A program made the position numbers and the translations under genes. Of a stretch of 38,035 nucleotides of DNA, positions 13,071 through 37,941 are shown piece after piece (the first letter of the stretch is position 1; each line of letters opens with the position of its first letter). The stretch is from an uncultured bacterium (GTDB lineage Bacteria; Pseudomonadota; Gammaproteobacteria; Burkholderiales; Burkholderiaceae_E): assembly GCA_903864485.1 (NCBI GenBank), contig CAIPGD010000122.1, positions 1 through 38,035 of the forward strand, in the 5' to 3' direction. The notes beneath the pieces are model-generated. The model was not told the origin of the DNA. It worked only from the letters and a program-made list of their open reading frames with translations, and searched no databases.

Positions 13071-14329
13071 GCTGCCAGCCTCTTTACTTTCAAAGCTTCG
13101 AAGCTCTCTCCGGTTTCTGCCAACACAGCCTCTTTGCCCGTGAACGACTGCCAGCGCTCGATGGCGACGTCGACATAGACCGGGTTCAGTTCGATCCCGA
13201 AGCAGACACGGCCCGTCGTCTCGGCGGCAATCAGGGTGGTGCCAGATCCCATGAAAGGCTCATAGATCGCTTGGCCGGGGCTGGAATTGTTCAGGATGGG
13301 TCGGCGCATGCATTCCACCGGCTTTTGCGTACCATGCACGGTGGTCGCGTCCTGATCCTTGCTTGCGATCTGCCAGAGCGTTGTCTGCTTGCGGTCGCCC
13401 GCCCAGTGCCCCTTGCCCTTGGCGCGGACTGCATACCAGCAGGGCTCATGCTGCCAGTGATAGTCTCCTCGGCTTAAAACCAGCCGGTCCTTGGCCCAGA
13501 TGATCTGCGACCGGATAGCGAAGCCCGCCGCCGTCAAGCTCTCTGCGACCGTGGCCGCATGCAGTGCGCCGTGCCAGATATAGGCGACATCGCCAGGAAA
13601 GAGCGACCAGGCCTCGCGCCAGTCTGCGCGGTCGTCATTCAGCACCTTGCCGGTGCGTTTGGTCTTGGCCGCACCTGCCTGATTGCGCCAAGACGGATCG
13701 TATTCCACACCGTAAGGTGGGTCGGTCACCATCAATAACGGGCGAACATCACCCAACACCTTTCCGACTGTGTCGGCTGCTGTGCTATCGCCGCAGACAA
13801 GCCGGTGTTGCCCGAGGTGCCAAAGATCGCCAGGTTCCGACACCGGCGTAACCGGAGGTTCTGGAACATCGTTCTCTCCTTCGACCGGACCTTCATCGCC
13901 CAGCGCCTCGGGATCTCGAAGAAGAGCGTCGAGGTCGTCGTCGGAGAAGCCAAGCAAACCAAGGTCGAAATCTTCCGCCAGCAATCCCGCGATCTCGTTG
14001 CGAAGCATCGCCTCGTCCCATTCGCCCAATTCCGTCAATTTGTTGTCGGCGATCCGATAGGCGCGGCGTTCGGCTTCGTCGAGGTGGCTCAGCCGGATCA
14101 CCGGCACCTCGGTCAGGCCCAGCAGGGTGGCAGCCAGCACCCGACCATGGCCGGAAATCAGCTCGCCATCGTCTGCCACCATGCACGGCACGGTCCAGCC
14201 AAACTTGGCCATGCTGGCAGCGATCTTCGCCACCTGATCATCGCCGTGCATCTTGGCATTGCCGGCATAGGGGCGCAGCCGTGCAATCGGCCAGATCTCG
14301 ATCTGGCTCGGCGCGAAGACGAGGTCCAT
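13067..14329 (-). CDS. ParB-like nuclease domain fused to DNA methylase
   Basis: ELISGHGRVLAATLLG (ParB) and VTDPPYGVEYDPSW (DPPY) plus YEPFMGSGTTLIAAE; start taken at MDLVFAPSQIEIWPI. Confidence 0.9.
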   Translation of the reverse strand: MDLVFAPSQIEIWPIARLRPYAGNAKMHGDDQVAKIAASMAKFGWTVPCMVADDGELISGHGRVLAATLLGLTEVPVIRLSHLDEAERRAYRIADNKLTELGEWDEAMLRNEIAGLLAEDFDLGLLGFSDDDLDALLRDPEALGDEGPVEGENDVPEPPVTPVSEPGDLWHLGQHRLVCGDSTAADTVGKVLGDVRPLLMVTDPPYGVEYDPSWRNQAGAAKTKRTGKVLNDDRADWREAWSLFPGDVAYIWHGALHAATVAESLTAAGFAIRSQIIWAKDRLVLSRGDYHWQHEPCWYAVRAKGKGHWAGDRKQTTLWQIASKDQDATTVHGTQKPVECMRRPILNNSSPGQAIYEPFMGSGTTLIAAETTGRVCFGIELNPVYVDVAIERWQSFTGKEAVLAETGESFEALKVKRLAA

Positions 14330-16650: not shown

Positions 16651-16659
16651 TCTTTTTCC

Positions 16660-19600
16660 TTAACTCTTAAGCGGTCGGGCATTCGGGCCACAAATATCCA
16701 GCCTTACAACTGGCTCAACATCCCGCATGGATCTCCCTGCTGTGAAAAGCTGCCTCTCAGGGTCAAGGGTTTTGGTTTGGGGATCCAGAACGTCCTGCAG
16801 AAGACTGTTCTGACCGCGCCGATTGTAGCTAAGCCGTCCCCCGTTGCCGGTCTGCGATGATGCCGTCCTGGACCACACGTCGGCAAGCGAAGCGATTTGC
16901 CGTTCAAGGTCGGCGGGTACATCGGTGAATGGAGCAGCGCGCTCCATAATATAGGAAAGCGCTTGATCATAGACCGTTTGAGGTAAGGTGAATGCCCCGG
17001 CCGCTTCGTCACCGCCATACTGGCGATCAGCATGGCGGATGATCGCTACAAGGACAGCAGCCAGAGCACGATCCAGCGCCCGGTCAGCCCAAGGGGTAAC
17101 GCTTGTCGCCTCGACCCCGCGGTAGAAACTTTCGTGGAAATACCCAAATCGTTCATAGTGCGCGCGGTCGCGAGGCTTGTGAACGTTCAGGAGAGAAAGG
17201 ACCAAGCCTGGTCGATTATGGTCTCGACCCACGCGACTTGTCGCCTGGATGTATTCGGCTGTTGCCTTCGGTTGGCCCATGACCACCATCAGCCCAAGCC
17301 TCGTGATATCCAGTCCGACAGAAATCATGTTCGTCGCAAGCGCGACATCGACAGCATCTTTTGATCCTGCCTTCGAATCCAGCCGCCGTTTTGATTTCGC
17401 CACATCGTCAGTGCTTTCGCGCGATGTCAGTTCTACCGGTGCAGCAATCTTGCGATTGGCGAACGGAATGTCGCCGGGGCTGATCCTTCGCCGCTCCGAG
17501 CCGTATCGCTGCGCGCGGTCGCGCACCTCGTCTTCCACGATTCGTCGAGCGCCACCAAGCTCCCGTAACGCATTGAAATAGCACATTGCCGTCATGTACG
17601 GATCGACTGAGTTTCCATCAACTGGCCCTTGCGCTTCAAATTCTGATTGCGCCGCCGCTTCAAGAGTCACAAGCGCGCGTAGGAAAACGAGTTTCGGTCC
17701 GCGCCCCAGTGCCGCCAAACCAATATACTTTCTGGCCGGATTAGCATCACTCGATGGAAGGGTTTCTGCGAAAAAGCTGTTGCGGCGGCTGATGCCAGGC
17801 GGAGGAAAGATCGCAGTTTCGCTTCGATCAAACAGTGCGCGGATCTGGGTTTGCGCTCGACGGACCGTCGCCGTCGACGCGACGATCTTGGGTCTAATTC
17901 TTGTCTCACCTTTGGTCCTCGTCGCCAAATAGTCGATCGCGGTTTCATAAAGCCCTGCAACTGTCCCCAGAGGGCCGGAAATCAGGTGAAGTTCGTCCTG
18001 CACGATCAAGTCTGGAGGATCCAGCTGCCAGCCGTTGTTCAGACGCGCGCCGCTCCGAGGTTCAGATGCGCCGTAAAAACCTTGGCCGTCGGCGCGGTCA
18101 ACGTGGCCGAAGAACGCTCCTGTCTGCCCAACCCAAGGCAAGGCCGCGAACTTGTCGATGGTCGCCACGATGAACGCCGGAAGTCGGCGATAGATTTCAT
18201 CGTCAGTAGCCAAAATTGGCAGGGGACGATTGCCTGTGAAATCGCAATCGACGTTCGGGCAAACAATCAGCATGCGCGATGGCACCTGTTCGTTTGGCCA
18301 GCATTTAAAGCTAGTGTGATCAAGGTTAGTGCCGCACCATGGGCAATTCCTGATCGGCGCGGGCGCAGGTCCGCTGCGCTTGCGATACGCGCGCACCCTT
18401 GTAACGGCGCGATCATCGCCAGTATCGCCCTTGCCACCCAGCTTGTTCGGGGATGCAGCTGAGCCGATCCACAGACCGATCTCGATGTCCCAATCGCCCA
18501 GCATTCGTCGGCCTTGGGTTTCCTTCCAGTCGTCTGAACAGCGCATCAATTCCAAAGCGCAGATCACGCCTGCCGCCCGGCCAAGTTGGTCTAGGGTCAG
18601 AAGGCGCAGTGTATAGCGCATGATCACAGTAACACCGGCGCCAAGCAAACCCGAAGCCCCAAGCCGCCGCAGAGCGATCGTGTAGGCCGCTAGGCCAAGA
18701 TAGGCTTCAGTCTTGCCACCACCGGTGGGGAAGAACAGCAGGTCAACGATTTCGCGGTCAGGGTGGGTCTTGTCGGTTAAACCTGACAGGTTGACCAGAA
18801 TAAACGCCAACTGGAAGGGTCGCCACTTCAGCGGTCCGATCTGATCCAGCGGTACCCCGCGTTCAGATGCAAAGCGGCGGCGACCTGCGGTTTCGACCGC
18901 TTCATTCATCGCTACAAAAGCCATGCGAGCCATGTCGTTAGTGAGCAGAAGTTCGATCCCAGCTTCCATCCGCGCCTTGCTCTCGGATTGGGCTTTGTTC
19001 AGGTCTTGTGCCATCTCGTAGCGACGTGGTTCACTTTTGAACCGATCTGCCAGTGAGGATTGGCTGGCAATCCAGTCGCTATATTGGCGGGGTAGCTCTG
19101 CAAGAGCCTCGCGCAGCGGTTGGGCACCAGCGCGTGCAGCTTCGCGCAGAGCGATCATATCGAAAGTGACACCGGTAATGCTCTCGTTCGGGGCGACGCG
19201 CTCCACCTCGGCCACAGGCATAGGCTCGGTACGAACGCGGCGAACGACACCGTCGGCGTCAATTTCATGCGCGCAGGCTGTATTGCGGCCAGCGGCGTAT
19301 TGCGGGACATCGTGGTAGTGCAAATCGTGCGTGCGAAGGTCGGGGTCGGTCGAGCGATAACCTGTCAGATCATAGCCTGCCACGATCCCTTGTGCACATT
19401 CCACCGTCATCCGCACCTGAAACGCATAAGACATTTCGGCAAACCGGCGGTTGCTGACAACAGCGCGGCGGTTCACCACGAAAACCGACAACGACCATAT
19501 GTCTAAATCCGGACCCTCGGCCTGGCGCATCTTTGTTTTTCGGCAAATCATCGATAGGTGCAACCAACCGGGGCGGTTGATCAGGGTCTTGCTGCCGTCG

Positions 19601-20112
19601 AGGTGAACCTCCCACTTGCCTTCCTTCAGAACCAGCTTGTGCTCGACGTGCCGGGGTCTTCGGCACCAACGTATTGGTTGATTAGCGGTGCGGGTCTCGG
19701 CCTCGAGGATTGCGTCATTGGGCATTGGTTCGGCGATGTAGTCGCCCCAATCGAGCGTCACCATGACCTCGGTCGCAGAAATCGGCAGCGAAGTTGATAG
19801 CCCGAGCGAGGTAGGCAAAAAGCGTTTGCGGGCGGTGTGGTCTTGCGCGCTGCCCTCGTCATCCGGGGCGGTGCTGGGCGGTTCGAGCCCAGCGAGGGTC
19901 TCTTCGGCCGGGGCGTCAACGTCGTCTTCGTCGAGTGGCGACGTGCCGTCCTGCGTGGGGGCGATCCAGCCGGTCAGATACCATTTCGACGGTTCCTCGG
20001 GCAGGATTTCCTCGGCCAGATCGGCATCTTCCGAGGTAGGGTTCGGGCCGATCAGGTCGCGACGCAATTTGGTCAGGATGGTTTCACGCACCGCGAGGGA
20101 GGTTTTGGTCAT
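16660..20112 (-). CDS. drmA: DISARM DrmA, helicase
   Basis: 1150 aa; FFPTGGGKTEAYLGL Walker A, DLIVQDELHLISGPLG motif II, ATSRVGRDHNRPGLVL; 4-bp ATGA overlap with drmMI. Confidence 0.92.
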   Translation of the reverse strand: MTKTSLAVRETILTKLRRDLIGPNPTSEDADLAEEILPEEPSKWYLTGWIAPTQDGTSPLDEDDVDAPAEETLAGLEPPSTAPDDEGSAQDHTARKRFLPTSLGLSTSLPISATEVMVTLDWGDYIAEPMPNDAILEAETRTANQPIRWCRRPRHVEHKLVLKEGKWEVHLDGSKTLINRPGWLHLSMICRKTKMRQAEGPDLDIWSLSVFVVNRRAVVSNRRFAEMSYAFQVRMTVECAQGIVAGYDLTGYRSTDPDLRTHDLHYHDVPQYAAGRNTACAHEIDADGVVRRVRTEPMPVAEVERVAPNESITGVTFDMIALREAARAGAQPLREALAELPRQYSDWIASQSSLADRFKSEPRRYEMAQDLNKAQSESKARMEAGIELLLTNDMARMAFVAMNEAVETAGRRRFASERGVPLDQIGPLKWRPFQLAFILVNLSGLTDKTHPDREIVDLLFFPTGGGKTEAYLGLAAYTIALRRLGASGLLGAGVTVIMRYTLRLLTLDQLGRAAGVICALELMRCSDDWKETQGRRMLGDWDIEIGLWIGSAASPNKLGGKGDTGDDRAVTRVRAYRKRSGPAPAPIRNCPWCGTNLDHTSFKCWPNEQVPSRMLIVCPNVDCDFTGNRPLPILATDDEIYRRLPAFIVATIDKFAALPWVGQTGAFFGHVDRADGQGFYGASEPRSGARLNNGWQLDPPDLIVQDELHLISGPLGTVAGLYETAIDYLATRTKGETRIRPKIVASTATVRRAQTQIRALFDRSETAIFPPPGISRRNSFFAETLPSSDANPARKYIGLAALGRGPKLVFLRALVTLEAAAQSEFEAQGPVDGNSVDPYMTAMCYFNALRELGGARRIVEDEVRDRAQRYGSERRRISPGDIPFANRKIAAPVELTSRESTDDVAKSKRRLDSKAGSKDAVDVALATNMISVGLDITRLGLMVVMGQPKATAEYIQATSRVGRDHNRPGLVLSLLNVHKPRDRAHYERFGYFHESFYRGVEATSVTPWADRALDRALAAVLVAIIRHADRQYGGDEAAGAFTLPQTVYDQALSYIMERAAPFTDVPADLERQIASLADVWSRTASSQTGNGGRLSYNRRGQNSLLQDVLDPQTKTLDPERQLFTAGRSMRDVEPVVRLDICGPNARPLKS

Positions 20113-23100
20113 TCACCGGTCCGATCAAAAAGAGGGCCTGCGTCGAGGCCGAAATCTATCTGCCGCGCGCGGATGCGGTCCGTCGCGGCAGAGTGTGGGG
20201 CATCGGGGGCAGTAGCAATGGCGATGCCTGCATTTGCCTCGGCCGCATGGCGGGTGCGGTTGAGGTCGAGAAGGCGGGCCAGAACCTCATCCCGGAAGTC
20301 GCTGGGCCAGAACAGGCGGCCCTGATAGGTGAATTCCGTCTCGGTTTCCTCGGTCAGGAAGACCGGGTTGGCAGCCTCGGCCAGATCGTCCCAGCCATAG
20401 GCGCGCAGCACGGCGCGGTCCATGTCTGCATGGAAATCGCGCAGGCGTTGGATGGTCGGGTCGCTATCATAGGAGTCGTGGAAGCGGTTGTAGGTATGGG
20501 TCAGGCCTTTGTTTGCCTCGATCATAAATTGCGCGCGAAAGTCGTAATAGGTTTTGCCTGTGGTCTCCAAATCGTTTTCAGATCCGAAGCCGTTGGGGAA
20601 GGGGAATGTCGAGAAGCAGTCAGAGACGGAGTACCGCAGGTCATCCTTCATTGAGGAAGAAAAATAGTTTGCCCAAATTTCATGTGGACGCGATTGGACA
20701 AGGCCAAATGCGTCAAAGGTCTGAAAGGCGAAAATGACCGTTGAGTCTGCGAAAAGCACCTTCGTTGAAGATCGCCCGACTGCCAACTTGGTCGAAACAC
20801 GGCTTAGAACCAAGGCGTCAGAGAGGCCTGCAATCCCGACCGCGAGCGCACCACCAAAACGCCAGTGTTGCCACCATGGATGCGCAGCAACAGCCGTGTT
20901 TCTGGAACTCAACCGCTCTGGTTTAACTTTATTCTCAACGATTTCTAACAAGTCTGGCCAATCCGTTGCCACCGGGTCGGGATAGTCTCCCGGCACTACA
21001 CCGCTCCTGAGCCAATCCCGTCTCCGCTTCTCGCAAGCCTCGGTCCCGGCGTTCATAAACCATGATTGAAGGGTTGGGTCTCGCCGAAGCGGAAATTCTT
21101 CGAAATCGATCACATAGCGGTGGTGAAGATGACGGGGGCTATTGTTCACTTCTTCGCCGCCAAGATAAGGCTTGATCCGCTCTGCATTTCGCGGATCCTT
21201 GGCGGTCAGCCTTTCCATATCCTCCAGTGAGGATGTTGTCCCCTTGGATGCGGCCAAGTCGTCAAAAGTGAAGCCCATCCCGTAGACGTCTTGTCCGCGA
21301 AACGCCTTCCCCTCATTCGCCGTCAGCGGCATAGGGCTGTCATCGTTGTCGCCATTAACCAAGAAGGCCGACACTCGATCGACTGGTCGCCCGTCGATCC
21401 GCAGCGGCGGCACCCGTTTCGGCCGCTTCACCCCGTGCACCACCGACACGACCACCGCCGCCTCGCCCGGCCATTTCAGCCGCCGCACCGCCCGATAAAG
21501 TACCGTGCCATGGGCGATCATCTGACGCAGCCCGCTTTCGCGGGTGTCGCCCTGCGCGATGGTGTTCGACGCGATCAGGCCGAACCCGCCGCCCTTTCGC
21601 AACAGCCCCTCGGCCCGGCGGAAGAAATGCGCCACCAGATCGGCGTTGCCGTGGGTCTTGTCATGCCGCCATTGCAGCCACTGGCCGTATCCGGCGCGGT
21701 TGCCCTTGGCGATGGTGTTTTTGCCCGCAAAGGGCGGGTTGCCTACGATCAGGTCAAAGCCCGGATTGTCGCGCCCGAACACCTCGGGGAATTCGATCTG
21801 CCAGTGGAAGGGCGCGATGGGGTGATCGCCCGTCCGCAACTCGGCCGCCATGCGCGCCGCCACATCCCAACAATCGGCGGCGCGGCTGGTGAAGATGACC
21901 TGAAACGCCTCCAGCGCCTTTTTGCGGGCGGGGCCTTTCTCGGCGGAAAAGAAGGTGGAGACCAGCGCATCGCCGACGTTGCGGATGGTGGTCAGCTGTT
22001 CTTCCGCCCTGCGTAGCCGCACCTCCTGCAGGGCGAGCGACACGTCATCGGGCGCGGTGCGGATAGCCTGCCGACCCTCGCGCCATTTCGTGACGCGTTC
22101 CTTGATGTGGCCAACCAACAGGGGCTTGGCGATCTTGGCGTCCCAGGTCAGCGCGCCGATCTCGCCCTCGGTCAGGCCGACAAGGCTGTCGCCGGATTTC
22201 AGGGCATGGTCGAGGAAGGTGAATTCATGATCGCGGGCAAGGGTGGCCAGCCACAGCGACAGCCGTGCCAGGTCAACCGCCATCGGGTTGCGGTCAACAC
22301 CATATAGGCAGCGCTGGGCGACAAGGCGGCGGGCATGCAGATCCTCATCCTCATCCTGCGGCAGCGTGGGGCGCTGGGCAGGGTTCCGCTCCCACGCGCG
22401 GGTCAGGTGAGACGCAAGGGCGCGGCAGGTTTCCACCAGGAAGGCGCCGGAACCCATGGCCGGATCGCAAACCTTGATGTCAAGGATCTGATCGGGGGTC
22501 GGACCATCGCCGAGATGGAGGAGAACAGGCTCCAGCGCCTCGGCCACGATGGGTTGGGTCAGGCTGCGCGGTGTATAGTGCGACCCGCTTTCGCGCCGTT
22601 CATCGGTGGGTTGCAGGATGGGCGTGCCAGCAGGGGCGGCGCGTTTGTGGGGCGAGGCGCGTTCATCGACGATGGGATCAAGCGCTGCGGCCAGTTCCTC
22701 GACCGTCTTGGCGGCTTTCAGAGCGTCTTCCTGACGGCCGGTCAAGGCGGATCGCTGGCATTCCTCTTTCAGGTACTTCTTACGGTCGGCCGGTTTGGTG
22801 CCTAGAAGGACAGCCAGATCGACATAGACCGGGGTCTTATTGTTCTTGCCCGCTTTGATGGCCAGCATCGGGCCGCTGGCGCGTTCGACCCGGAAGCCCA
22901 TGACGGTTTCATAGACCGAGCCGATCTGTTCAACATCAAGGGCCTTGTAGGAGAGCCGATCACCCTTCAGCGAAAGCAGCCCCTCCAGCACGTTCAGGAT
23001 GCAGTTGTCGGAAATGCGCAGGACGCGGGCCTTGTCTTCCTTGGTCTTGCGGCCTTGCAGGAACAGGAACACGTCCGGATCGAACAGCCGCCCCCCGCGC

Positions 23101-24179
23101 GACCGAATGAAGCCGCTGCGATGGCCACTGTGGATCATCCCAAACAGCGCCAGCAACCTGCCCCAGCCCCCGACCCTCTCATCCATCGTGTCAGGGTTCA
23201 ACGCCCTGTCTTCCAGCAGGCGATCATAGAGGCCACGGGCCGAATAGTTTTCGTCATAGAGGACGCGGGCGGAATCCTCGGTCATCGAGGGCAGCAACTC
23301 GCGGTCTTCGGCGAAGAGGATAAAGACCAACCGCAGCAAGACGGTCAGCAGGCCTTCGTAAAGCTGGTCAGGGTCTTCGTCGGCGATGGTTTCGATCAGT
23401 GCGCGCGCATCATCGTCGGCGAGAAAGCCGCGCAAAAGTTCATGCAACGCGCCGAGGACCTGTTCGGCTAGGGTGATGGAGACGATGGCCTGCGCTTCGC
23501 GCGAGGCTTTCAGAACAGCGTGCAAGCGCATGTTCGCCGGAGCCGTGAACAATCGGTCTGTGCCCAGCGCCGATTTGAGGCCACCCAGCATGGAACGGCC
23601 AGCCACCGAAGTCAGATCGTGCAGAGGCCAGCCGATCCAACCTGCTGTTTCACCCCGTGGTGCATAGACAAGTCGCAGCTGAAGGTCGGAGAACAGGATG
23701 CCAACCTCGACACCGCTTTCCCGCAGCAAGCGTTCAAATCGCTGTTGGGGTGATGCTTCCCACCCGTCAAGAGCACCGCGGGCGTCTGGATCAGTCCCCG
23801 GATCCTCGGTACGCACAAGTAAAAGAACTCGATCCTCCGCCCGTGTGTCGATCAGCGCCAAGTCAGCGGAAAGCACGGTGTCCAGTTCGGGAAGAGCCAG
23901 CGTTGCAAGCTCTGGCAGCGATGGTCCACCTGGAGCACCAGCAATACGGCTGACCGGCCAACCGAGGATGGATTGCAGGAAACCCGAGGGATCGCCAACC
24001 GCCGGTTCCTCACGTGTGGTAGCGAGATGGGCAGCAATTTCTTGGCTGTCAAAGCGCGTCTGCTGCACGGGACTGATGCCAAGATCATCAAGGATGGGCC
24101 TGGCGAAAACCAAGCCTTCACGCTGGACGTGGTCAAGCCATTCAAATGGCGCGTACTTCAAGGGCTCGGCAATGATCAT
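20109..24179 (-). CDS. drmMI: DISARM class 1 DrmMI, N6-adenine DNA methyltransferase
   Basis: KVCDPAMGSGAFLVETCR (motif I) and FDLIVGNPPFAGKNTIAKGN (motif IV); start at MIIAEPLKYAPFEW gives a TGATG junction with drmD. Confidence 0.9.
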   Translation of the reverse strand: MIIAEPLKYAPFEWLDHVQREGLVFARPILDDLGISPVQQTRFDSQEIAAHLATTREEPAVGDPSGFLQSILGWPVSRIAGAPGGPSLPELATLALPELDTVLSADLALIDTRAEDRVLLLVRTEDPGTDPDARGALDGWEASPQQRFERLLRESGVEVGILFSDLQLRLVYAPRGETAGWIGWPLHDLTSVAGRSMLGGLKSALGTDRLFTAPANMRLHAVLKASREAQAIVSITLAEQVLGALHELLRGFLADDDARALIETIADEDPDQLYEGLLTVLLRLVFILFAEDRELLPSMTEDSARVLYDENYSARGLYDRLLEDRALNPDTMDERVGGWGRLLALFGMIHSGHRSGFIRSRGGRLFDPDVFLFLQGRKTKEDKARVLRISDNCILNVLEGLLSLKGDRLSYKALDVEQIGSVYETVMGFRVERASGPMLAIKAGKNNKTPVYVDLAVLLGTKPADRKKYLKEECQRSALTGRQEDALKAAKTVEELAAALDPIVDERASPHKRAAPAGTPILQPTDERRESGSHYTPRSLTQPIVAEALEPVLLHLGDGPTPDQILDIKVCDPAMGSGAFLVETCRALASHLTRAWERNPAQRPTLPQDEDEDLHARRLVAQRCLYGVDRNPMAVDLARLSLWLATLARDHEFTFLDHALKSGDSLVGLTEGEIGALTWDAKIAKPLLVGHIKERVTKWREGRQAIRTAPDDVSLALQEVRLRRAEEQLTTIRNVGDALVSTFFSAEKGPARKKALEAFQVIFTSRAADCWDVAARMAAELRTGDHPIAPFHWQIEFPEVFGRDNPGFDLIVGNPPFAGKNTIAKGNRAGYGQWLQWRHDKTHGNADLVAHFFRRAEGLLRKGGGFGLIASNTIAQGDTRESGLRQMIAHGTVLYRAVRRLKWPGEAAVVVSVVHGVKRPKRVPPLRIDGRPVDRVSAFLVNGDNDDSPMPLTANEGKAFRGQDVYGMGFTFDDLAASKGTTSSLEDMERLTAKDPRNAERIKPYLGGEEVNNSPRHLHHRYVIDFEEFPLRRDPTLQSWFMNAGTEACEKRRRDWLRSGVVPGDYPDPVATDWPDLLEIVENKVKPERLSSRNTAVAAHPWWQHWRFGGALAVGIAGLSDALVLSRVSTKLAVGRSSTKVLFADSTVIFAFQTFDAFGLVQSRPHEIWANYFSSSMKDDLRYSVSDCFSTFPFPNGFGSENDLETTGKTYYDFRAQFMIEANKGLTHTYNRFHDSYDSDPTIQRLRDFHADMDRAVLRAYGWDDLAEAANPVFLTEETETEFTYQGRLFWPSDFRDEVLARLLDLNRTRHAAEANAGIAIATAPDAPHSAATDRIRARQIDFGLDAGPLFDRTGE

Positions 24180-27100
24180 CAAGTCGTCTCCGGCCACAGA
24201 TAAATCAGTCCGACTGGCTCCAGACGACATGCGATGACGTCAAAGCCCTTGCGGATTTTTTCGGGCTCAACATCGATTTCGGTCAACAGACGGTCCAGCT
24301 TTTTCTGCCAGTGCCGTCGGTCAGCATCCAACTGGCGTTGCTCTTCAAAGTTGAACTCACCTTGTTCAGGTTCGCGCGAACGCTTCTGGAGGCGCTGACG
24401 CTGATCCAGCAGCAGCCGACGCATGCTTTCCTCTTCCCTCTTACCAAGCTCTTGAAGCTGTTCAGTTACTGCTTGGGCAATCGGCGTGGAACGGAGTTCG
24501 AATTCCGCACGCAGGCTCGTAACGTCACCCTTTCTACGGCTCAACGCCTCGGTCGATAATGCTTCGCTGGCCGCTTTTCCATCCCGAAGGGCATCTTCAA
24601 GGCTCGCCAATGTCAGCACTTCTGCGTCCAGTCCCTGGCGAAGAAGGCGCAATTGACCGTCCGCGCCAATGCGCCCCGTGATTGGTATGACCTCCTCGTG
24701 CAAGCGCACCCCTTTGGGCCCGTAAAGGGACATGCGACCGAGCAAGACGACGCGTTGCTGTGTGCTGGGGACCAAGAGCACGCAAGCGCGGTTCAGGCGG
24801 GTCCGAAACCCTTGAGATACAAACCGGGCCACCAATCGCCGAACCAGCCGATGTTCGACATGCAGATGGCAAACTTCGGGTGCGTCGCTTTGATCGGGCA
24901 GGATAACCGGATCGAAGGACAAACACTTTAGCGGTTGCGCTGCCCGCCACTCATTCAGCTTTTGTCCCTTGGTTGGCGGAGCAAGACGCAGGTCATCCAG
25001 GATAGGTGCCCATCCTGCACCCGAAAATACCGGATCGTTCTCCTGGATCGTGAAGACGCTGGCGCTGGGCACCGCCGACACCGATGAGGGCGTCAACTGG
25101 CCGCCAGATTGCGAAAGTGCGATTCCAATGACTCGCTGCAGATCGCTCCCAACAATGCCAACGCGCCGCCGAGAATCTTCCAATGTCTTTCGCAGCTTGG
25201 CGTTCTGCTCGCCAACTGCCTTGCGGCGTTTTTCTTCGGTGCCGTTCAAAGCCCGAATCTCGGCACGATACGTCGCGGTTTCGTCGTCGCTCTCCAACTC
25301 AGCCGCCAGCGCTAAAGCCCTGTCGCGCCTTATGCCCTCCGACGTGAGCCTTTTCATCAAGCGATCTTCGATGACGCGCCCGACAGCGCCCAGTTCATTA
25401 CGAATTCTCTCCGTTTTGCGAACCAAGGCCGCCTGAACAATGTCCGTGGGCCGCTGTGCGTACCTGAAATACCGGCAGAACACCGTTGGCGCTGGCTGCA
25501 ATTTTCGGTCGATGCGGCCATTCCGTTGCTCCAAGCGCGACGGGTTCCACGGAAGGTCAAAATGGACCAGGTCGTGACAACCCTTTTGCAGGTTGATCCC
25601 TTCACGCGCCGCGTCAGTACATAGCAGCAGCCTCAACGGGCTTTCGGCAGGGTTGCAGTTGAAGGCGAATTTGATGCGCTCCCTTTCATCTGGCGACGTC
25701 GCGCCTGTGAGGCTTGCAACATGTATTTCGGGGTCAAGGTCGTCCAGAAGTTCAAGCAGACGGTTTTGGAGCCACAGACGAGTGTCCTGATACTCTGTGA
25801 AAACGATCAGCCTGCGGTCATTCCACCGACCGGTCGTTGTCATGTTCTGACGAATCCAAGATGCCATCCACCTGACCCGGGCGTCAGGTTTCAGGCTGGC
25901 CTTGCGGGCTTCCTCCAACATCGATTTGACGAATGTTTTCTCGTCTTCAACCGCTGGTTCCGTCGCCCCCGCCAGACCCGCCTTAGTTGCTGCGATGACC
26001 AGGCTCGGATCATCATCAACATCGTCAATCCCCGCTGCAGAATAGTTGAGGTCATCTTCGTCGAGACCGTCAACTTCCCTACCGTCGGCAAAAGCAGTCG
26101 CCATCGAACCAAGCGTTGAACGCTCTGCAGCTGTTGGGGCTTTCATGGCCCGCAGGTGGACCTCCAGTGTCTTCTTGAACGCCTCAGGCGAGGACAAAAG
26201 GCGCTGTTGCAACCCGGAAAACACCAGCTTCCCCTCAGCCCGTTCACGGGGAGACATTGCATGAAGCCGGGCGTCCCGCATTGCGCCATACGATTCCAGC
26301 ATTTCGGACAGCCGCAGATCCGCTGCGTCCGATTGTAAGCCATCAATTTTGACTTCTTCGACAACCCGTTCCGGAAAATGCTCGCCCAGCGCGCGAAGGT
26401 CCGATTTCAGCCGCCGCACCATTACAGGTTCAAGATCGGCGGTCTCGACAGGAACACCGCGTGTAAACCGATGTGGGTCTAGGATTTCCAGCAGCGCCGT
26501 GAAGCTGTTGGAATGACCATTGTGCGGCGTCGCACTGAGAAACAGCCGATGTTCAAATCCCTGCGCAATATCGCGCACGGCCTTGGTGAACTGGCTGTCG
26601 ATCGCATAGCGGCTTCCGCTGGCCGGGGCTGCATGATGCGCCTCATCAAGGATCAGCATGGAGTTTGAACGCATTGGACCGAGGATCTCTCGCAAGCCCG
26701 ATGCATATGTTTCGTCGGCCAGAAGGCGATGAGAGACCAGAAAACAAGATCCAGAAGCCCATGGGTTGGTGCCGAATCCGCGCCTGCGGCGAACCTGAGC
26801 CAGGTAATTCCGGTCAAGAACTGTCGCTGCTATACCGAACTTCTGGCCAAGTTCTTCATGCCATTGCATAATCATTGAAGGCGGGCATGCGATGACCACA
26901 AAGTTTACCCGACCGCGCAACAGCATTTCTCGGAGCACGAGCCCCGCTTCGATCGTCTTGCCCAATCCAACATCATCGGCGATCAGCATGTTGACCCTTG
27001 GCAAGTCCAGTGCTTTTTGAAGCGGGGCGAGCTGGTAAGGATCAAGCCGTATGCCCGCACGAAATGGTGCCTGGAATAGACCCTTGTCCGCCACGGAAGT

Positions 27101-27532
27101 CGAATTCCAGTCAACAGTCTTTAGCCAGGCAGAGAACGTGGCTGCCGTGTCGGTACCAACAGAGCCAATCGAGCCCCATAGGGAATCAGTCATTGAATGC
27201 GCTGCGACCTCTGCATCCCAGATGACTCTCGCCTCTTCGCCCTGAGCATCGTCTTCAATGCAGGAAAGTTGCAGTACGTTCAGATCTTTTCCGAGTTTAT
27301 CAGCACCCTGTGAGAGCCACTTGCGGCCTCTTAGTTCGACAAATTCACCAAACGCAATCTCGCCGAGTGCTTCTTGCTGCAAAATTCTACTCCCAAATTT
27401 GGCCCGCCGGGGTATCGTGTTCGCAACCGATTGCCGTTTATTGCCAAGGCCAAGATGAGAAATACGATTGCAGCATGCCCAGACAGATGCAATGGGCAGT
27501 TTACGCAGGTCATAGTTGAACGATCCGACCAC
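24179..27532 (-). CDS. drmD: DISARM class 1 DrmD, SNF2-like helicase
   Basis: NMLIADDVGLGKTIEAGLVLREML, LILDEAHHAAP, LCTDAAREGINLQKGCHDLVHFDLPWNPSRLEQRNGRIDR; GTG start at 27532 is uncertain. Confidence 0.9.
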   Translation of the reverse strand: MVGSFNYDLRKLPIASVWACCNRISHLGLGNKRQSVANTIPRRAKFGSRILQQEALGEIAFGEFVELRGRKWLSQGADKLGKDLNVLQLSCIEDDAQGEEARVIWDAEVAAHSMTDSLWGSIGSVGTDTAATFSAWLKTVDWNSTSVADKGLFQAPFRAGIRLDPYQLAPLQKALDLPRVNMLIADDVGLGKTIEAGLVLREMLLRGRVNFVVIACPPSMIMQWHEELGQKFGIAATVLDRNYLAQVRRRRGFGTNPWASGSCFLVSHRLLADETYASGLREILGPMRSNSMLILDEAHHAAPASGSRYAIDSQFTKAVRDIAQGFEHRLFLSATPHNGHSNSFTALLEILDPHRFTRGVPVETADLEPVMVRRLKSDLRALGEHFPERVVEEVKIDGLQSDAADLRLSEMLESYGAMRDARLHAMSPRERAEGKLVFSGLQQRLLSSPEAFKKTLEVHLRAMKAPTAAERSTLGSMATAFADGREVDGLDEDDLNYSAAGIDDVDDDPSLVIAATKAGLAGATEPAVEDEKTFVKSMLEEARKASLKPDARVRWMASWIRQNMTTTGRWNDRRLIVFTEYQDTRLWLQNRLLELLDDLDPEIHVASLTGATSPDERERIKFAFNCNPAESPLRLLLCTDAAREGINLQKGCHDLVHFDLPWNPSRLEQRNGRIDRKLQPAPTVFCRYFRYAQRPTDIVQAALVRKTERIRNELGAVGRVIEDRLMKRLTSEGIRRDRALALAAELESDDETATYRAEIRALNGTEEKRRKAVGEQNAKLRKTLEDSRRRVGIVGSDLQRVIGIALSQSGGQLTPSSVSAVPSASVFTIQENDPVFSGAGWAPILDDLRLAPPTKGQKLNEWRAAQPLKCLSFDPVILPDQSDAPEVCHLHVEHRLVRRLVARFVSQGFRTRLNRACVLLVPSTQQRVVLLGRMSLYGPKGVRLHEEVIPITGRIGADGQLRLLRQGLDAEVLTLASLEDALRDGKAASEALSTEALSRRKGDVTSLRAEFELRSTPIAQAVTEQLQELGKREEESMRRLLLDQRQRLQKRSREPEQGEFNFEEQRQLDADRRHWQKKLDRLLTEIDVEPEKIRKGFDVIACRLEPVGLIYLWPETT

Positions 27533-28208
27533 TAGAACTATTCATTACCGCCCACGGCCGCACCTTCGGCATCGTGGCTGTCACCTCCAAATCGCGCAGC
27601 ATGCTGCCCGCCAACAGCCCATCTCGTACCCAATCCAGCGCTTGCCACCAGTCTTCATAGCCACGTCGGGCTGATGCGATCTGTTCCGGATGTGGTCGCC
27701 AGATGACCGGGCAAGCCATCAACTCGACTGTTCGCCACTTGCCACGCGAAAGCATTCGTTCCGTCCCAACGACAACGGCGCTTGCCCTTTCCCCATGCTG
27801 GTTCCTTTTGGTCTCCACAGGCACACAGCGCGGAACAGCCCCTGGCATCCAGTCCGGCGTAAGCCCAGCGCGGGCCAGTTCAGCCACGCGGATTGCCATG
27901 CGCTTGCCCCCGAGATTGTCAGGCATCGCGGCCACAATCGCTGCGATCAACTCAGCGTCTTCGTGGATGTAGCTTCCAATTTTGTGCTGTCCGCCATCAA
28001 CCTTGCAGCCCAGCGCTGCTCGTTGGATGAGTACATATTCAAGGCCGAACCCAAATCCCTGCCGGCGTTCAGGATCGGGTGGCTCAGGCAGTTCCAACTG
28101 CGCATGCTCGACGCGGAAGGCCCATTCAAGCGTCTGCTGCACGGACTTGGAATGCTTCGCTCGCTTCGGCCCAGCGGTGCGACCGTGCAAATTGCGTTCA
28201 TATTTCAT
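27510..28208 (-). CDS. conserved prophage protein in early operon
   Basis: 232 aa; ATGA overlap with the upstream gene. Confidence 0.65.
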   Translation of the reverse strand: MKYERNLHGRTAGPKRAKHSKSVQQTLEWAFRVEHAQLELPEPPDPERRQGFGFGLEYVLIQRAALGCKVDGGQHKIGSYIHEDAELIAAIVAAMPDNLGGKRMAIRVAELARAGLTPDWMPGAVPRCVPVETKRNQHGERASAVVVGTERMLSRGKWRTVELMACPVIWRPHPEQIASARRGYEDWWQALDWVRDGLLAGSMLRDLEVTATMPKVRPWAVMNSSSGRIVQL

Positions 28209-29215
28209 CGGATTCCTCGCTCTCGAAGACGCGATGCCGTCACCAGCCCACGGGCCAGCATCGCGTCGCGCATGGAGTTCGTGATCGCGCTGACGGGCAG
28301 GTAGCGATCGGAGTTGACCATCTTGGCATAAAAGTCTGGAACATCAGTCATTGGTAGGCATGCAGGCGCCACTGGTTGCTTGGACTTTCGTCGTTTGCGT
28401 GATGCATCGTCTGCTTTGCGCTGGGCAGCACGCTGCATGGTCCGATCGAGCGCCTTGGGCCCATCAGGCGGCTCGGGATGTTCGTGACGCGAAGCTTCCG
28501 TAGCCTCAAGGATTTCGGCTTCGGTCAGCCCGAGATCATTCTGCCAGCGGCGTACATGCTCCCGGGGCGGCCAGCCTTGCCACCAACCGGGCAGGGCGCC
28601 CTCAGGGGCAAAGCCCAGCGCCAAGAGCAGCGATCCGAAAAACTCTTCATCGAGGCCGCCGCGCCCACGCGCTGCCTCCTCCTCCTTTACAGGTTTACTT
28701 ACTGGTTCTCTTACAAGGTTACTGTCCGGATTTCGGACACGGCTTGAGGCATTTTCCGGACAAGGCTTGGGGTGAAAGTCGGACACGGCTTCGCGTCCGG
28801 CTTCCAGACACGGGTCGGTGGTTTTCAGCGCCATTGGGACGAATTCGGCTGAGTTTTCGGTGGGAAAGAATGGGAGGCTGTCCTCCACCTCGCTGCCATG
28901 TCCGGTTTCCGGACACGGGGCGCCCTGATATTGGGTAAAGCCCGGCTCAAACGACAAGATGTAGCGGGTCGGCATCTGCCGCTTGGTGCCAGGATTAAGC
29001 CGCTGCACCCGGCGGATGAGGCGAGCGCTCTCAAGCAAGGTCAGATGCTCATTCAGCGTCGATCGGCTGATCTCGCAGTCATGGGCCAATTGCTCCTGGG
29101 ACGGGAAACAGCCGAAGTCTGGATTGAACCGATCGCACAGATGCCAGAGCACGATCTTGGTCGTGGGCTTTAGCCCGCGTTGCTGGATGGCCCAATTGGT
29201 GGCGGCATGGCTCAT
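28205..29215 (-). CDS. HTH replication-initiator-like protein (lambda O-like role)
   Basis: N-terminal winged HTH (KIVLWHLCDRFNPDFGCFPSQEQLAHDCEISRSTLNEHLTLLESARLIRRV), low-complexity middle, conserved C-terminus. Confidence 0.7.
   Translation of the reverse strand: MSHAATNWAIQQRGLKPTTKIVLWHLCDRFNPDFGCFPSQEQLAHDCEISRSTLNEHLTLLESARLIRRVQRLNPGTKRQMPTRYILSFEPGFTQYQGAPCPETGHGSEVEDSLPFFPTENSAEFVPMALKTTDPCLEAGREAVSDFHPKPCPENASSRVRNPDSNLVREPVSKPVKEEEAARGRGGLDEEFFGSLLLALGFAPEGALPGWWQGWPPREHVRRWQNDLGLTEAEILEATEASRHEHPEPPDGPKALDRTMQRAAQRKADDASRKRRKSKQPVAPACLPMTDVPDFYAKMVNSDRYLPVSAITNSMRDAMLARGLVTASRLRERGIR
28684..28813. repeat. degenerate ~23-bp-period iteron array (CGGACAMGGCTTS core)
   Basis: CGGACACGGCTTG 28734, CGGACAAGGCTTG 28757, CGGACACGGCTTC 28780; degenerate flanking units. 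Confidence 0.65.
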
Positions 29216-29607: not shown

Positions 29608-29873
29608 CGTCCGACCTCCCTGTCAGGTCGACGATGTTCGGCCCACCTGGGCGACTTAGCGTCAAGGACCACCAGCAAGATCCGAGCGTCCTCACGCTCC
29701 CCAGGTGTCTCCCCATACTGGACCAGAACATTGCACGCCAGCCGGATCAGATGATCGGAATGGTTCACGACATCCGCCACGACGATGCGCGCCTCGCGTC
29801 GTCGCTCGTCGATCCATTCCCGGCGAGCTCGGTCCCGGGGGGCACTCTGGCGGAGGGGCAGGGGGATGTTCAT
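29604..29873 (-). CDS. hypothetical early protein
   Basis: MNIPLPLRQSAPRDRARREWIDERRREARIVVADVVNHSDHL; ATGA overlaps on both sides. Confidence 0.55.
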   Translation of the reverse strand: MNIPLPLRQSAPRDRARREWIDERRREARIVVADVVNHSDHLIRLACNVLVQYGETPGEREDARILLVVLDAKSPRWAEHRRPDREVGR

Positions 29874-30136
29874 TGCTGCCCACCCGAGCGCGAACGACGC
29901 GGGTCCCGTACCTCTTGTGTGTCCAGCCATTCAAGCACGGTCGTCCGGCGGTAGAGTATCTTGCGACCTGCCCTCACAAAGGCCGGCCCCCGTCGGGCAT
30001 CCGCCCAGCGCCGAAGGGTTTCCTCGCAAACCCCCAGTTCCTGGGCGAGGTCGTTGCGGCTGATCCAGCCCTGCAAGAGCGCGCCTTCGGACGCCCTGAT
30101 CTTCGGTGCCACTGCGTTGGTTTCAAGTTGCGTCAT
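29870..30136 (-). CDS. excisionase/AlpA-like HTH DNA-binding protein
   Basis: WISRNDLAQELGVCEETLRRWADARRGPAFVRAGRKILYRRTTVLEWLDTQEV. Confidence 0.75.
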   Translation of the reverse strand: MTQLETNAVAPKIRASEGALLQGWISRNDLAQELGVCEETLRRWADARRGPAFVRAGRKILYRRTTVLEWLDTQEVRDPRRSRSGGQQ

Positions 30137-30205
30137 CTGTTTTCTCCCGATTGTCGCCCGCTGCGGGCGAAGGTCGTGAGCAAGCAGAAGCACACCGGCA
30201 TGGGC

Positions 30206-30667
30206 GGCAGGGTGGCAGTGACCGGCAGTGAGATTGTGAACCTTGCCACCCCCCGTGCCACCCCTTGTTTTGTTGAGGTTGTTCAAAACTGCGCTGCGCT
30301 GCAGCGAGATGTATCGACTTTGCAAACTTGATTTTCTGGCTACCAGCAGGTCGCTGAAAGGTTAGATCGAGGTAGTTTCCCCGAAGTCGCCAACATTGGC
30401 GGGGTTTTGATGACATTCAGGGGTGGCAATGGGTGGCAGTGAGGGCGCTGAATTGCCGGTTTTTGTGCCGGTCCCTGATTTTACTAAGAAATCTGCGAAA
30501 GTTCGGGCAGGGATCTGGCCCAACTTCCGACATGACCATTTACCGGCATCGGCTTCACCGCGCTGAGCGTGGCGATTTGAAAAAACACCATATGCGCTCG
30601 GGTGGCGGCGGTGCGGCAGTGGGGTGGCATGCCCTCTGGGGTCACTGCCGGTCGCTGCCACCCTGCC
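30206..30667. repeat. GGGTGGCA motif cluster bounded by a 26-bp inverted repeat (25/26)
   Basis: GGCAGGGTGGCAGTGACCGGCAGTGA (30206-30231) vs reverse complement of TCACTGCCGGTCGCTGCCACCCTGCC (30642-30667); 7 exact GGGTGGCA/TGCCACCC plus one variant. Confidence 0.7.
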
Positions 30668-30740
30668 GGTCCGGGTCTCATGATTACCTTGCTAGAGCCG
30701 CGAATCTACGCGTCATGGACGGGGAAAAGGAGGTGCGTCG

Positions 30741-32008: not shown

Positions 32009-32776
32009 TTACAAAGAGAGCTCTTCGATTTCGATCGCAGATAGCAACAGGCGCGATCGCCGGGCGATCCGGCGCGTGAGATGCTGAAACATAGGATCAA
32101 AGATGTCTTCAGCGTCAGCCACTTTCATTCCGACGAATTTTGCGCCCCAACCGCGAGCGTGCATCTGTTCGGCGACCTGCTCTGCGTTCGCCGGTCGTTT
32201 GCCCTTGTCCGGACCCTTATTCGAATTGCGCACGACGAAGCCGCAAAATGCACCGTCTTTATGTGCAAAGATTGACGGATCCACTTCTAGATCTGTCTGC
32301 CAGCTTGCGATTGTCCATCCGTTCGCGACCAAGTGCTGGCGAACTGCCTGAACACCAACATCGTGGATTTCCCAAGGTGTCATCAAAATGGGCTGATCTG
32401 TGACGCGTTCGAAGGGGTTTAGGGGGGCTTGGGTTTTCCAATCGATCAGCCCCCATCCCAGTTCGACGGGCTTCCAACCGTCGTCGACGCGTTTCATCGG
32501 CATGATGCATCCAATGCAGTTCGCGTCTTCGACAGCCGTCGCCAGTCTTCTTTCTTGGTACCAGCCGTTATCCTGCGCATTCACGTCCATAATTTGTATG
32601 AAAAACAACTGGTTTCCCAGCGCGAACGAGAGATGCTCGCGAAACGGGGGAAGGTCAGCGCGCAGCCAAGAGGCCCCCGCATCTCGGACACGCAAGTTCA
32701 GGTGGCGTCCCGCTGCCAGCCAGCATGCCTCAAAGTCGGGCGTCAGCTCAAAGGGTTTGATTTCATAGGTGGTCAT
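32009..32776 (-). CDS. hypothetical cargo protein
   Basis: 255-aa ORF, convergent with integrase; no family recognised. Confidence 0.55.
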   Translation of the reverse strand: MTTYEIKPFELTPDFEACWLAAGRHLNLRVRDAGASWLRADLPPFREHLSFALGNQLFFIQIMDVNAQDNGWYQERRLATAVEDANCIGCIMPMKRVDDGWKPVELGWGLIDWKTQAPLNPFERVTDQPILMTPWEIHDVGVQAVRQHLVANGWTIASWQTDLEVDPSIFAHKDGAFCGFVVRNSNKGPDKGKRPANAEQVAEQMHARGWGAKFVGMKVADAEDIFDPMFQHLTRRIARRSRLLLSAIEIEELSL

Positions 32777-32879: not shown

Positions 32880-33485
32880 TCAGTTTTTGTCCTGCTTCTT
32901 TGTCAATTCGCGCCAGATTGGCGTAATCCTGCGCCGGATAGAGCGTTCATCGGGCACCTCGTTCCCGTCTGAATGTTCCACGAACCATTCCTGCATGTCG
33001 CCGACGAGTTCCCCCTGCGAGGCTGGCAGGCCCTGTTCGTGGATGCGAAGGGCCAGGGCCTGCAACATACCCTCCCAGTCATAGGGTGAGACCGATCCTG
33101 TGCTGGCGCTCACTCGTCGAAAGAGCTCGTTCTTTTCCTCGAAGCGGTGAACTTGAAGGCCAGAAATCAGCAGGTCGGCCACCGACACCTCTACGCCTGC
33201 GACTGGATCGGTGATGAGCTGCCAGTCCGCTTCGTTCTTGGTGCGAACCCTGCGCAGCCAGGCTGTTTGTGGCCCAGTTCCGCAACGTCGGAACATCGGT
33301 AGGATGTCGAAGGTGGAAATAATCACTGCGCCGGCGACAATCTTCTCACCGCACATCGCGGGCGGGATCCCCGTCAAAATGTCGAAATGTCCGGCCGCGG
33401 ACCAACCGGCGACATCCGCGATCGTATAGCCCCAACGGGCAGCAACTTCATGGACGGCGTAGAACTCTCGTTTTGGTAGCTTCAT
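32880..33485 (-). CDS. hypothetical protein with N-terminal HTH-like segment
   Basis: 201 aa; FYAVHEVAARWGYTIADVAGWSAAGHFDI resembles a MerR/excisionase-type HTH. Confidence 0.6.
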   Translation of the reverse strand: MKLPKREFYAVHEVAARWGYTIADVAGWSAAGHFDILTGIPPAMCGEKIVAGAVIISTFDILPMFRRCGTGPQTAWLRRVRTKNEADWQLITDPVAGVEVSVADLLISGLQVHRFEEKNELFRRVSASTGSVSPYDWEGMLQALALRIHEQGLPASQGELVGDMQEWFVEHSDGNEVPDERSIRRRITPIWRELTKKQDKN

Positions 33486-36190: not shown

Positions 36191-36587
36191 GGATGGCGCC
36201 GCGATGGCTCGACAGGCAGACCAGCTAGTCGTGCGGTAACGTGCGGGCTTGGGCTTGCTCCTGTAACCCGTCTAAACACATGGATTCACGATGTAGGTCC
36301 TTCACGGCGAGAGTTCTGAAACATTGCCCTGCTGATCATATTTTATGGCACTTTTCAATTTTTTAGTATTTCCTTTGATCGCGGGGCAAGCTGTGTTATT
36401 TTTTTCCGTGTGGTGCTTCGTCTTCGGTTTGGGGGTTGTCGGCAGAAGGGCAAGAGACCGATGGTCAGGCGTCACGAATCCTTGAATCTTGGCAGAAAAC
36501 CGCTTAATCCGCCGTTTATCAGTCGTTAACCCGCCCATGCGTACTATATACCGAGTGAAGCAGCTCTCTCATCGAAAGGAGGATCAG

Positions 36588-36827
36588 ATGCTTGCAGAGT
36601 TCATCAGATGGTTCAACTTTCTCGCAGAGAAGACGGACAAGCCGCAGTTTCGCTCGCAACGCGAGGCAATCGACTTCGTTCGTCGTGTCACTAATGAGAG
36701 CGGCGGTCCAAACGCAAAGATTTTGAAGATGCGCAAGGATTATGTCACTGTTCTCAAAGAGCAAAAAACCCGCGCCAGCGCCGGAAACCAAGGCGAGCCT
36801 CAACCTATCACGGTTAATAGTCGCTAA
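36588..36827 (+). CDS. small ORF, candidate partner of the GNAT gene
   Basis: 79 aa from ATG 36588 preceded by AAAGGAGGA; overlaps the GNAT ORF. Confidence 0.5.
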   Translation: MLAEFIRWFNFLAEKTDKPQFRSQREAIDFVRRVTNESGGPNAKILKMRKDYVTVLKEQKTRASAGNQGEPQPITVNSR

Positions 36828-37329
36828 GTTTGATCCACGCTGGCACGTCTACAATCGCTTTGATTGCGACGCTGTCCCACTGAACAGCTTCATCAGGAAC
36901 AAGGCTGTCAAGGCCGCGGCGCGTCGAGAGTTCGCAGTATATGTGGCAACTCTCGACAACTCGCCAAATGTCATCGCTTACTATGCACTCCAAGTCGGAT
37001 CTGATGCCGTTCCAAACAAGCACCCGATGAAGACCACTTATCTCTCAACCTATGCGGCTTTCCCGACTGTCAGCCTTGCCTACCTGGCTGTGAACCGTGA
37101 TCAAAAACGGCAAGGAATTGGACAGTTTCTTCTGATGCATGCCTTCGAGCGCGTGGCCGAGATCGCCGACAAAGCTGGTCTCTTTGGCGTCAGCTTGCAG
37201 TCATTCAGCAAGGATTCGACCGCGTTCTACATGAGCCTTGACTTCGCAAAGTATGGCGGAACAGATGAACAGCCGAAGCTGATTTATCCGCTTTCTCTGA
37301 TCTACAAGCTCTTTGAATACGACGAGTGA
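36742..37329 (+). CDS. GNAT acetyltransferase, TacT toxin-like
   Basis: FDCDAVPLNSFIRNKA...YVATLDNSPNVIAYYAL...LAVNRDQKRQGIGQFLLMHAFERV...FYMSLDFAKYGG. Confidence 0.75.
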   Translation: MSLFSKSKKPAPAPETKASLNLSRLIVAKFDPRWHVYNRFDCDAVPLNSFIRNKAVKAAARREFAVYVATLDNSPNVIAYYALQVGSDAVPNKHPMKTTYLSTYAAFPTVSLAYLAVNRDQKRQGIGQFLLMHAFERVAEIADKAGLFGVSLQSFSKDSTAFYMSLDFAKYGGTDEQPKLIYPLSLIYKLFEYDE

Positions 37330-37894
37330 GCCGAAAAGCTAGTCAGGACTTCGGTAACGAGGCGGTGCCAGTCAGGCATCTTTCGACAAGCGATGTTGGC
37401 CGCAAGGCTGCGGTTTTGAGCAGATGTTCTTTCTAGCCGCCCTGCCTTCGCGGCAGCCTTCGTCTGATATCTGACCCGGGTGCAGGCTTCGGTCCGTGGC
37501 CAGCGCAGCGGCCGCCAACATGTTTGTCTGCATCAGCGACATTAGACAAAGAGTTGTGCTGTGCCATCCACGAACGGCCGCTTCGGGCAGGCCTCCCCAC
37601 AGCTTTGGTGCGCTCTCGACTGGCGGCTTTGGGCCGCTTAAGGCCCTAGGCATGATCACTTTCACTCGATCCACTCCTACCCGTCTTAGGTAAGCATGAT
37701 TGCGCGATTATGTTTGGTTTTGGCGCCCCGTTTTACATCAACACCACATCAACAGTCGAAAGTGGTTTGAAAACAACGCCCTGTAGTCTAGTGTCCACGA
37801 GTGTTGTCGAACGTCAGAATAGAAATACCGTGAAATCAAAGGGTTGTCTGCTAAATCGTTGATTTCTATAACCTATTGGAATCATTTGGGTTTT

Positions 37895-37941
37895 GGCTCA
37901 TAACCTGAAGGCCGCAGGTTCAAATCCTGCCCCCGCAACCA
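37895..37941 (+). other. 3' fragment of initiator tRNA-Met gene: putative attachment site (att) and element boundary
   Basis: GGCTCATAACCTGAAGGCCGCAGGTTCAAATCCTGCCCCCGCAACCA: CAT anticodon loop, T-arm GCAGG-TTCAAAT-CCTGC, acceptor CCCCGCA-A-CCA; no 5' half upstream. Confidence 0.75.

Follow-up and report, generated by a model that had tools for sequence, protein, structure and literature searches.

What are the repeated octamers between the divergent excisionase-like gene (xis) and the integrase gene (int) of a prophage, and which protein reads them? The question is raised by contig CAIPGD010000122.1 (assembly GCA_903864485.1), analysed over its full length of 38,035 nucleotides (the window), which is one entire assembly contig with Rhodobacterales genomes as its nearest relatives and which encodes a lambda-type portal, a gpA-type terminase, a replication gene cluster, the xis-like gene and int. 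A first-pass annotation had described 462 bp between xis and int as a multi-site regulator or recombination region, i.e., Xis/repressor operators or Int arm sites. Our comparisons indicate that the octamers are not integration sites but putative docking sites for a regulator encoded past int. The flagged region is probably the operator region of a prophage switch, bound by the C-terminal helix-turn-helix (HTH) of this protein, named g1, most likely the lysogeny repressor. The evidence was read from sequence and comprises the sites and modules, their conservation, an attachment site located elsewhere and the covariation of site class with the C-terminal helix of g1.

Repeated Half-Sites Form Three Conserved Modules

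Exact copies of GGGTGGCA were confirmed where they had been annotated, at 30210, 30421, 30431 and 30622 on the forward strand and at 30244, 30256 and 30656 on the reverse strand, as was the variant GGGTGGCG at 30600(+). The annotated inverted repeat is also present and contains GGCAGTGA twice (30214 and 30224, spacing 10 bp), but it spans 27 nt with 26 of 27 positions matching (96%), not 26 bp. The whole window holds nine exact octamers compared with a shuffle mean of 1.75 (nine or more in 0 of 100 shuffles), only two of them, at 14125 and 18432, outside the flagged region. The window's own genome contains 147 octamers in 2.84 Mb, one per 19 kb; from this rate ~0.02 copies are expected in the 462-bp stretch and seven are observed. 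A second half-site type, GACCGGCA, which the first-pass annotation had overlooked, occurs at 30220(+), 30466(-), 30646(-) and 30664(-) and completes the modules. Together, the two types account for 12 half-sites in 604 bp, where simulation gives a mean of 0.18; no other 604-bp stretch of the window holds more than 2. The inverted pair GGGTGGCR N10-30 YGCCACCC is found at two places in the 2.84-Mb genome, 30210-30251 and 30622-30663, both in the flagged region.

The half-sites fall into three modules, L, M and R (Table 1), and because R is an inverted copy of L, the outermost octamers form the inverted repeat mentioned above. Inner inverted half-sites lie 15-16 bp apart in the window, with the outer half-sites ~1-2 helical turns beyond. 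Module L ends in the AT element TTGTTTTGTTGA at 30265-30276 and CTGATTTTACT comes after the half-sites of module M; in most relatives an AT element, TTGTTTTATTGG, is kept after the module on the side facing away from the gene.

The three-module layout is shared by the majority of ~100 related Rhodobacterales prophages, and in most relatives, rearranged loci included, an orthologue of module L lies ~100-130 bp upstream of xis. Exactly three pairs are present within 600 bp upstream of int in 50 of 67 relatives with sites of the window's type (class A, see below), with module spacings of 189 ± 9 and 178 ± 11 bp; 82 kb of int coding sequence, taken as control, holds three pairs. Operators of a lysogeny repressor would be expected as several near-identical sites placed between divergent early genes and integration genes, which is the arrangement seen here. 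Since the octamers greatly exceed the genomic background and recur in related prophages, neither a background-level density nor a lack of conservation can be held against the annotation, and its judgement that this is a multi-site regulator region and not chance is borne out. One relative (L138, G062:C1 3541269-3542058) carries five operator pairs, not three, with a 392-bp stretch including modules apparently duplicated in tandem; its genome is labelled Exiguobacterium, a poor fit for an alphaproteobacterial prophage.

The Site Class Follows the C-Terminal Helix of g1

Five half-site classes were distinguished among the relatives, A (GGGTGGC), B (GACCGGC), C (GAGTGAC), D (GACCGGA) and E (GGGTGGA), with labels that we set from module L; four loci (L048, L092, L101, and L144) were at first unassigned and were counted as class C in later scans. 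Site similarity was compared with the similarity of linked proteins by Mantel tests on 52 dereplicated loci, in which the pairs of sequences are not independent. The strongest relation was found for g1, with r = 0.71 and a partial correlation of 0.60 with all other proteins held (0 of 500 permutations). The corresponding values (Mantel/partial) are 0.43/-0.18 for Xis, 0.43/0.21 and 0.18/-0.09 for the N- and C-terminal parts of Int (Int-N, Int-C), 0.05/-0.01 for the replication initiator Rep and 0.32/0.12 for the VRR-NUC nuclease. Thus g1 tracks the sites best although it is encoded farther away, with int in between. When 1,108 nine-residue windows from five proteins were scanned without bias, the ten best class predictors at matched identity all fell in g1 residues 177-194, and for g1 alone the observed peak was reached in 1 of 2,000 column shuffles. 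On the protein trees, class changes number four for g1, which is the minimum, five for Int, six for Xis and 16 for Rep. Loci L097 and L110 illustrate this: their site classes differ and their Int C-domains and Xis proteins are 96% and 80% identical, g1 only 54%. Of 84 loci whose sequence extends far enough downstream, 83 contain g1 or a remnant of it.

The class-specific helices of g1 read PD[SEGD]R[ST]IRR (A), PDESTIRRR (B), PSER[ST]IRRH (C), PEESTTRKK (D) and PEDSTIRKR (E). Lys185 goes with GGA-type sites (D, E) and Arg185 with the others, while His186 goes with the GAC type. Coevolution with a linked, predicted DNA-binding protein, here seen at the level of sequence, is likewise expected of lysogeny-repressor operators.

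The other protein considered in the first-pass annotation, Xis, is an unlikely reader of the sites. As operators of this divergent HTH_17 protein (Xis/Cox/AlpA-like), they would serve its autoregulation and the repression of int; module L does always lie upstream of xis, PHROG_66 is labelled "excisionase and transcriptional regulator," classes D/E also have a different Xis recognition helix (A/S for R/H), and 8-10-bp phased repeats suit Xis/Cox filaments. However, Xis has no explanatory power beyond that of g1 (partial -0.18 vs. 0.60 for g1), its best window scores 0.078 vs. 0.409 in g1, phages of classes A and B can have the same Xis helix TVDTLRRWEAQRFGP, i.e., the class switches between A and B with this helix unchanged, and the motif is not seen near the attachment core, where Xis should act. 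Of the annotated "Xis/repressor operators" the repressor part therefore survives, with g1, which the annotation had not considered, as the candidate, and the Xis part is weakened.

The Attachment Site and the Int Arm-Type Sites Lie Elsewhere

It is very unlikely that the octamers are Int arm-type sites or part of the phage attachment site (attP), even though they adjoin int, include direct repeats 10 bp apart and retain the Int-N partial correlation given above. The attachment core was located 5.9 kb beyond int, at the 3' end of a tRNA-fMet gene and followed by terminator-like host sequence; Rfam gave only a sub-threshold tRNA match, which corresponds to the tRNA-fMet fragment, and the same fragment was found in ~50 relatives. 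At the other prophage end, in three complete relatives and two neighbouring elements, the tRNA 3' end is followed within ~110 bp by a CATCAAC-type direct repeat pair of the kind found at 37735-37753 in the window, so that in complete relatives such pairs flank the core on both sides. The pair differs by lineage (CATC, CGTC, TGTC, CCTC, GGTC, and GCTC), and the best predictor of this arm class at matched overall identity, when Int, Xis, g1, and Rep were scanned, was Int residues 31-47, within Arm-DNA-bind_3. That the same scan picks the arm-binding domain of Int for the arm class makes it a positive control for the operator-class scan.

Class A operators are found in combination with four arm types (CAT, CG, TG, and CC), i.e., octamer class is decoupled from arm class. 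Arm sites would be expected to lie close to the crossover core, at most a few hundred bp away, and to covary with the Int N-terminal domain; the octamers at 30210-30671 are far from the core at 37895-37941 and follow g1. Since the arm sites lie at the prophage ends and vary together with the Int N-domain, whatever the octamer class, the "Int arm sites" of the first-pass annotation are not supported for the flagged region. Furthermore, no half-sites were found beside the core in the left and right attachment sequences (attL/attR) examined, whereas Xis/Cox sites would be shared with the attachment region.

Several observations concern the tRNA-fMet target itself. Cores in a row were found in single genomes (G064:C4 266880-367569; G063:C133 9458-125718; G062:C1 3441121-3580806), which suggests tandem elements, some sharing an operator class. 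Four further loci (L161, L162, L163, and L074) are islands with type I restriction-like genes, in which an Int of ~62% identity is encoded ~554 bp from the same core and a TGCCACCCTGCCACCC pair lies upstream of int; g1 was not detectable in them. A survey of Rhodobacteraceae prophages mentions tRNA-Met integration and reports the absence of an excisionase from its prophages (PMC8224337).

Terminators, Iterons and DNA Inversion

In several classes the inverted pair resembles a stem followed by a T-rich tail, TTGTTTTATTGG, as in intrinsic terminators or attenuators. This is a highly improbable account of the sites, as terminator-like matches in the window are at chance level (2 vs. 1.3), the outer half-sites change together with the stem although they lie outside it, and the site sequence tracks a protein, g1. 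Terminator-like behaviour may be an extra, stoperator-like function of the modules. A role as replication origin iterons of the O-like initiator (28205-29215) can practically be dismissed: AT-rich elements stand beside the repeats and rep belongs to the divergent operon, but Rep is up to 99% identical across site classes, correlates with the sites at a Mantel r of only 0.05 and requires 16 class changes. Since replication and nuclease genes are in cases near-identical across site classes, their products are not the site readers. Sequence-specific recognition by Rep is refuted, as the sites do not covary with the initiator as iterons would.

Classes D and E and L046 carry the int-g1 cassette in inverted orientation with respect to xis and the attachment end. 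Loci with this order are L046, L060, L061, L084, L113, L116-L119, L121, L122, L124, L125, L127, L128, L137, L141, and L152, in many of which the cassette includes a WYL gene. The int-side breakpoint falls within module R, whose int-side half stays with int. That the sites belong to a DNA inversion system, as this gene order and breakpoint might suggest, is highly improbable: no matching site is present at the other end of the cassette, the g1 proteins of the D and E loci group in a single clade, as expected from an old rearrangement, and M has a single orientation throughout the loci of normal order. In the inverted-cassette loci, module L (with xis) and the R remnant (with int) are kilobases apart and still share the same lineage-specific half-site, which points to one factor acting in trans, as linkage alone would not be expected to suffice.

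g1 and the Proposed Switch

g1 is a full-length member of PHROG_13283 (1.6e-74), a family annotated as of unknown function. In its AlphaFold2 model (predicted local distance difference test, pLDDT, 87; predicted template modelling score, pTM, 0.58), residues 180-200 belong to the third helix of a three-helix domain at the C-terminus, and the N-terminus has a strand-helix-helix-strand-strand fold that is MerR/Xis-like by eye. No Pfam-A or NCBIfam model matches g1. Structure searches of the PDB and BFVD gave nothing at E ≤ 0.001; weak partial matches include PrtN- and MerR/AlpA-like proteins. The PDB sequence search returned designed and unrelated proteins only, the few matches below 0.01 being designed proteins, nothing matched among 50,697 phage records and a literature search on g1-type regulators found nothing. 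In one relative (L040) the g1 homologue is encoded between xis and int, not beyond int, with operators on either side.

In the proposed switch, g1 would most likely be made in the lysogen and would bind L, M and R through its C-terminal HTH, each module acting as an array of inverted, helix-phased 8-bp half-sites (GGGTGGCR/GACCGGCR) between the divergent xis-rep operon and int. Bound g1 would shut off or coordinate xis-rep and int transcription. Modules ~180-210 bp apart would probably be looped together, and their number suggests cooperative binding or looping. We infer physical binding by g1, repression rather than activation and looping from the arrangement and covariation of the sites.

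Several points weigh against this switch. Only ~four independent class changes lie behind the covariation, and the pairwise statistics are not independent; Int-N retains its small partial correlation of 0.21; and class E has GGT-type sites despite its Ser181, so that there is no simple one-residue code. No structural relative backs DNA binding by g1 beyond the predicted helices, and no sigma70-like promoter was found with a consensus that had not been adapted to this clade. The genomes G063 and G064 each harbour two class A prophages, and for this reason strict superinfection immunity by g1 should not be assumed.

Prophage Setting and Neighbouring Genes

Table 1. Coordinates of the operator modules, genes and attachment features in the window.
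Feature	Position	Strand	Remarks
Inverted repeat, left arm, 27 bp	30205..30231	+	96% match
Inverted repeat, right arm, 27 bp	30642..30668	-	96% match
Operator module L, xis-proximal	30210..30276	+	30210+ GGGTGGCA, 30220+ GACCGGCA, 30244- and 30256- TGCCACCC
Operator module M, middle	30421..30487	+	30421+ and 30431+ GGGTGGCA, 30454- TGCCGGTT (relaxed match), 30466- TGCCGGTC
Operator module R, int-proximal, inverted copy of L	30600..30671	-	30600+ GGGTGGCG, 30622+ GGGTGGCA, 30646- TGCCGGTC, 30656- TGCCACCC, 30664- TGCCGGTC
g1, 201 aa, candidate regulator of the operators	32880..33485	-	PHROG_13283 (unknown function); N- and C-terminal HTH-like folds predicted
Codons of g1 residues 181-189 (RSIRRRITP), start of C-terminal third helix	32919..32945	-	Diagnostic of operator class
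xis-like gene, 88 aa, HTH_17, first gene of divergent early operon	29870..30136	-	Pfam HTH_17 1.3e-10; PHROG_66 excisionase and transcriptional regulator 3.2e-10
Replication initiation O-like gene in xis operon	28205..29215	-	PHROG_345 4.3e-21
int, tyrosine recombinase, 419 aa	30741..32000	+	Arm-DNA-bind_3 and Phage_integrase (Pfam)
Attachment core, 3' part of tRNA-fMet(CAT), prophage/host junction	37895..37941	+	
Int arm-type direct repeat pair, adjoining prophage end	37735..37753	+	ACATCAACACCACATCAAC
DISARM drmD	24179-27532	-	
DISARM drmMI	20109-24230	-	
DISARM drmA	16660-20112	-	
DISARM drmB	14806-16650	-	

The prophage carries a class 1 DISARM (defence island system associated with restriction-modification) operon at 14806-27532 (-), between the terminase side and the replication genes. 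As the matching interval of a 90% relative (L085) is only ~1.7 kb, the operon looks like inserted defence cargo. Between int and g1 lies a 255-aa open reading frame (ORF) of no known family (32009-32776, -); it is a local insertion, as g1 adjoins int in L085, and L039 and L086 show a displacement of g1 of comparable length. At the prophage end (36489-37329, +), a small ORF overlaps a gene with a weak match to GNAT acetyltransferases (Acetyltransf_7, 9.3e-05, below its cut-off), an arrangement that resembles TacAT-type toxin-antitoxin pairs. A gene for a WYL/WCX-domain regulator (L101:8005-9057, with orthologues in ~39 loci) follows g1 in many relatives and opens the variable cargo region that separates g1 from the attachment end; it is absent from the window.

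Comparison With Known Systems

The regulator family and the operator design appear to be new. Tentatively, and with slightly less than even confidence, g1 may found a new family of lysogeny repressors with two DNA-binding domains, in which case the tRNA-fMet Rhodobacterales prophages would comprise at least five heteroimmune groups, with specificity residing in about nine residues of one helix and two variable positions of the 8-bp half-site. The proposed switch gives a testable role to a protein family of hitherto unassigned function, in a widespread group of prophages that has no match among the 50,697 phage records searched. The residues that set operator specificity are predicted, and a natural series of matched regulator/operator pairs makes immunity grouping and regulator-operator coevolution directly testable.

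In P2 (Cox), P4 (Vis) and AlpA systems an HTH_17 protein is encoded next to int and regulates it through multiple boxes. The locus described here resembles them in both respects, but its HTH_17 protein, Xis, is not the best-correlated factor. Lambda CI with OL/OR represents clustered multi-site operators for divergent early promoters, a layout which is shared here together with the possibility of looping. In contrast to CI, g1 has no Pfam-detectable HTH_3 or peptidase domain, and its gene lies beyond int and convergent with it, while the operators lie between int and xis.

The coevolution of a regulator with its clustered operators is a known principle in lambdoid phages and Cluster A mycobacteriophages (PMC6550527; PMC9283540). 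For the immunity repressor of the latter (L5, Bxb1, and TipsytheTRex), it was reported that operator/stoperator sequences diverge in step with the repressor, resulting in heteroimmune groups (PMC9283540; PMC6550527). No sequence or fold match was found between g1 and the Cluster A repressor. The Cluster A sites are 13-bp, asymmetric and scattered genome-wide, and stoperators are dispersed through the phage genome in one orientation, whereas the sites described here are 8-bp half-sites in inverted arrays, with pairs in the flagged region only. The likeness lies in the changes of the site sequence in step with the regulator, as the site class tracks g1 here.
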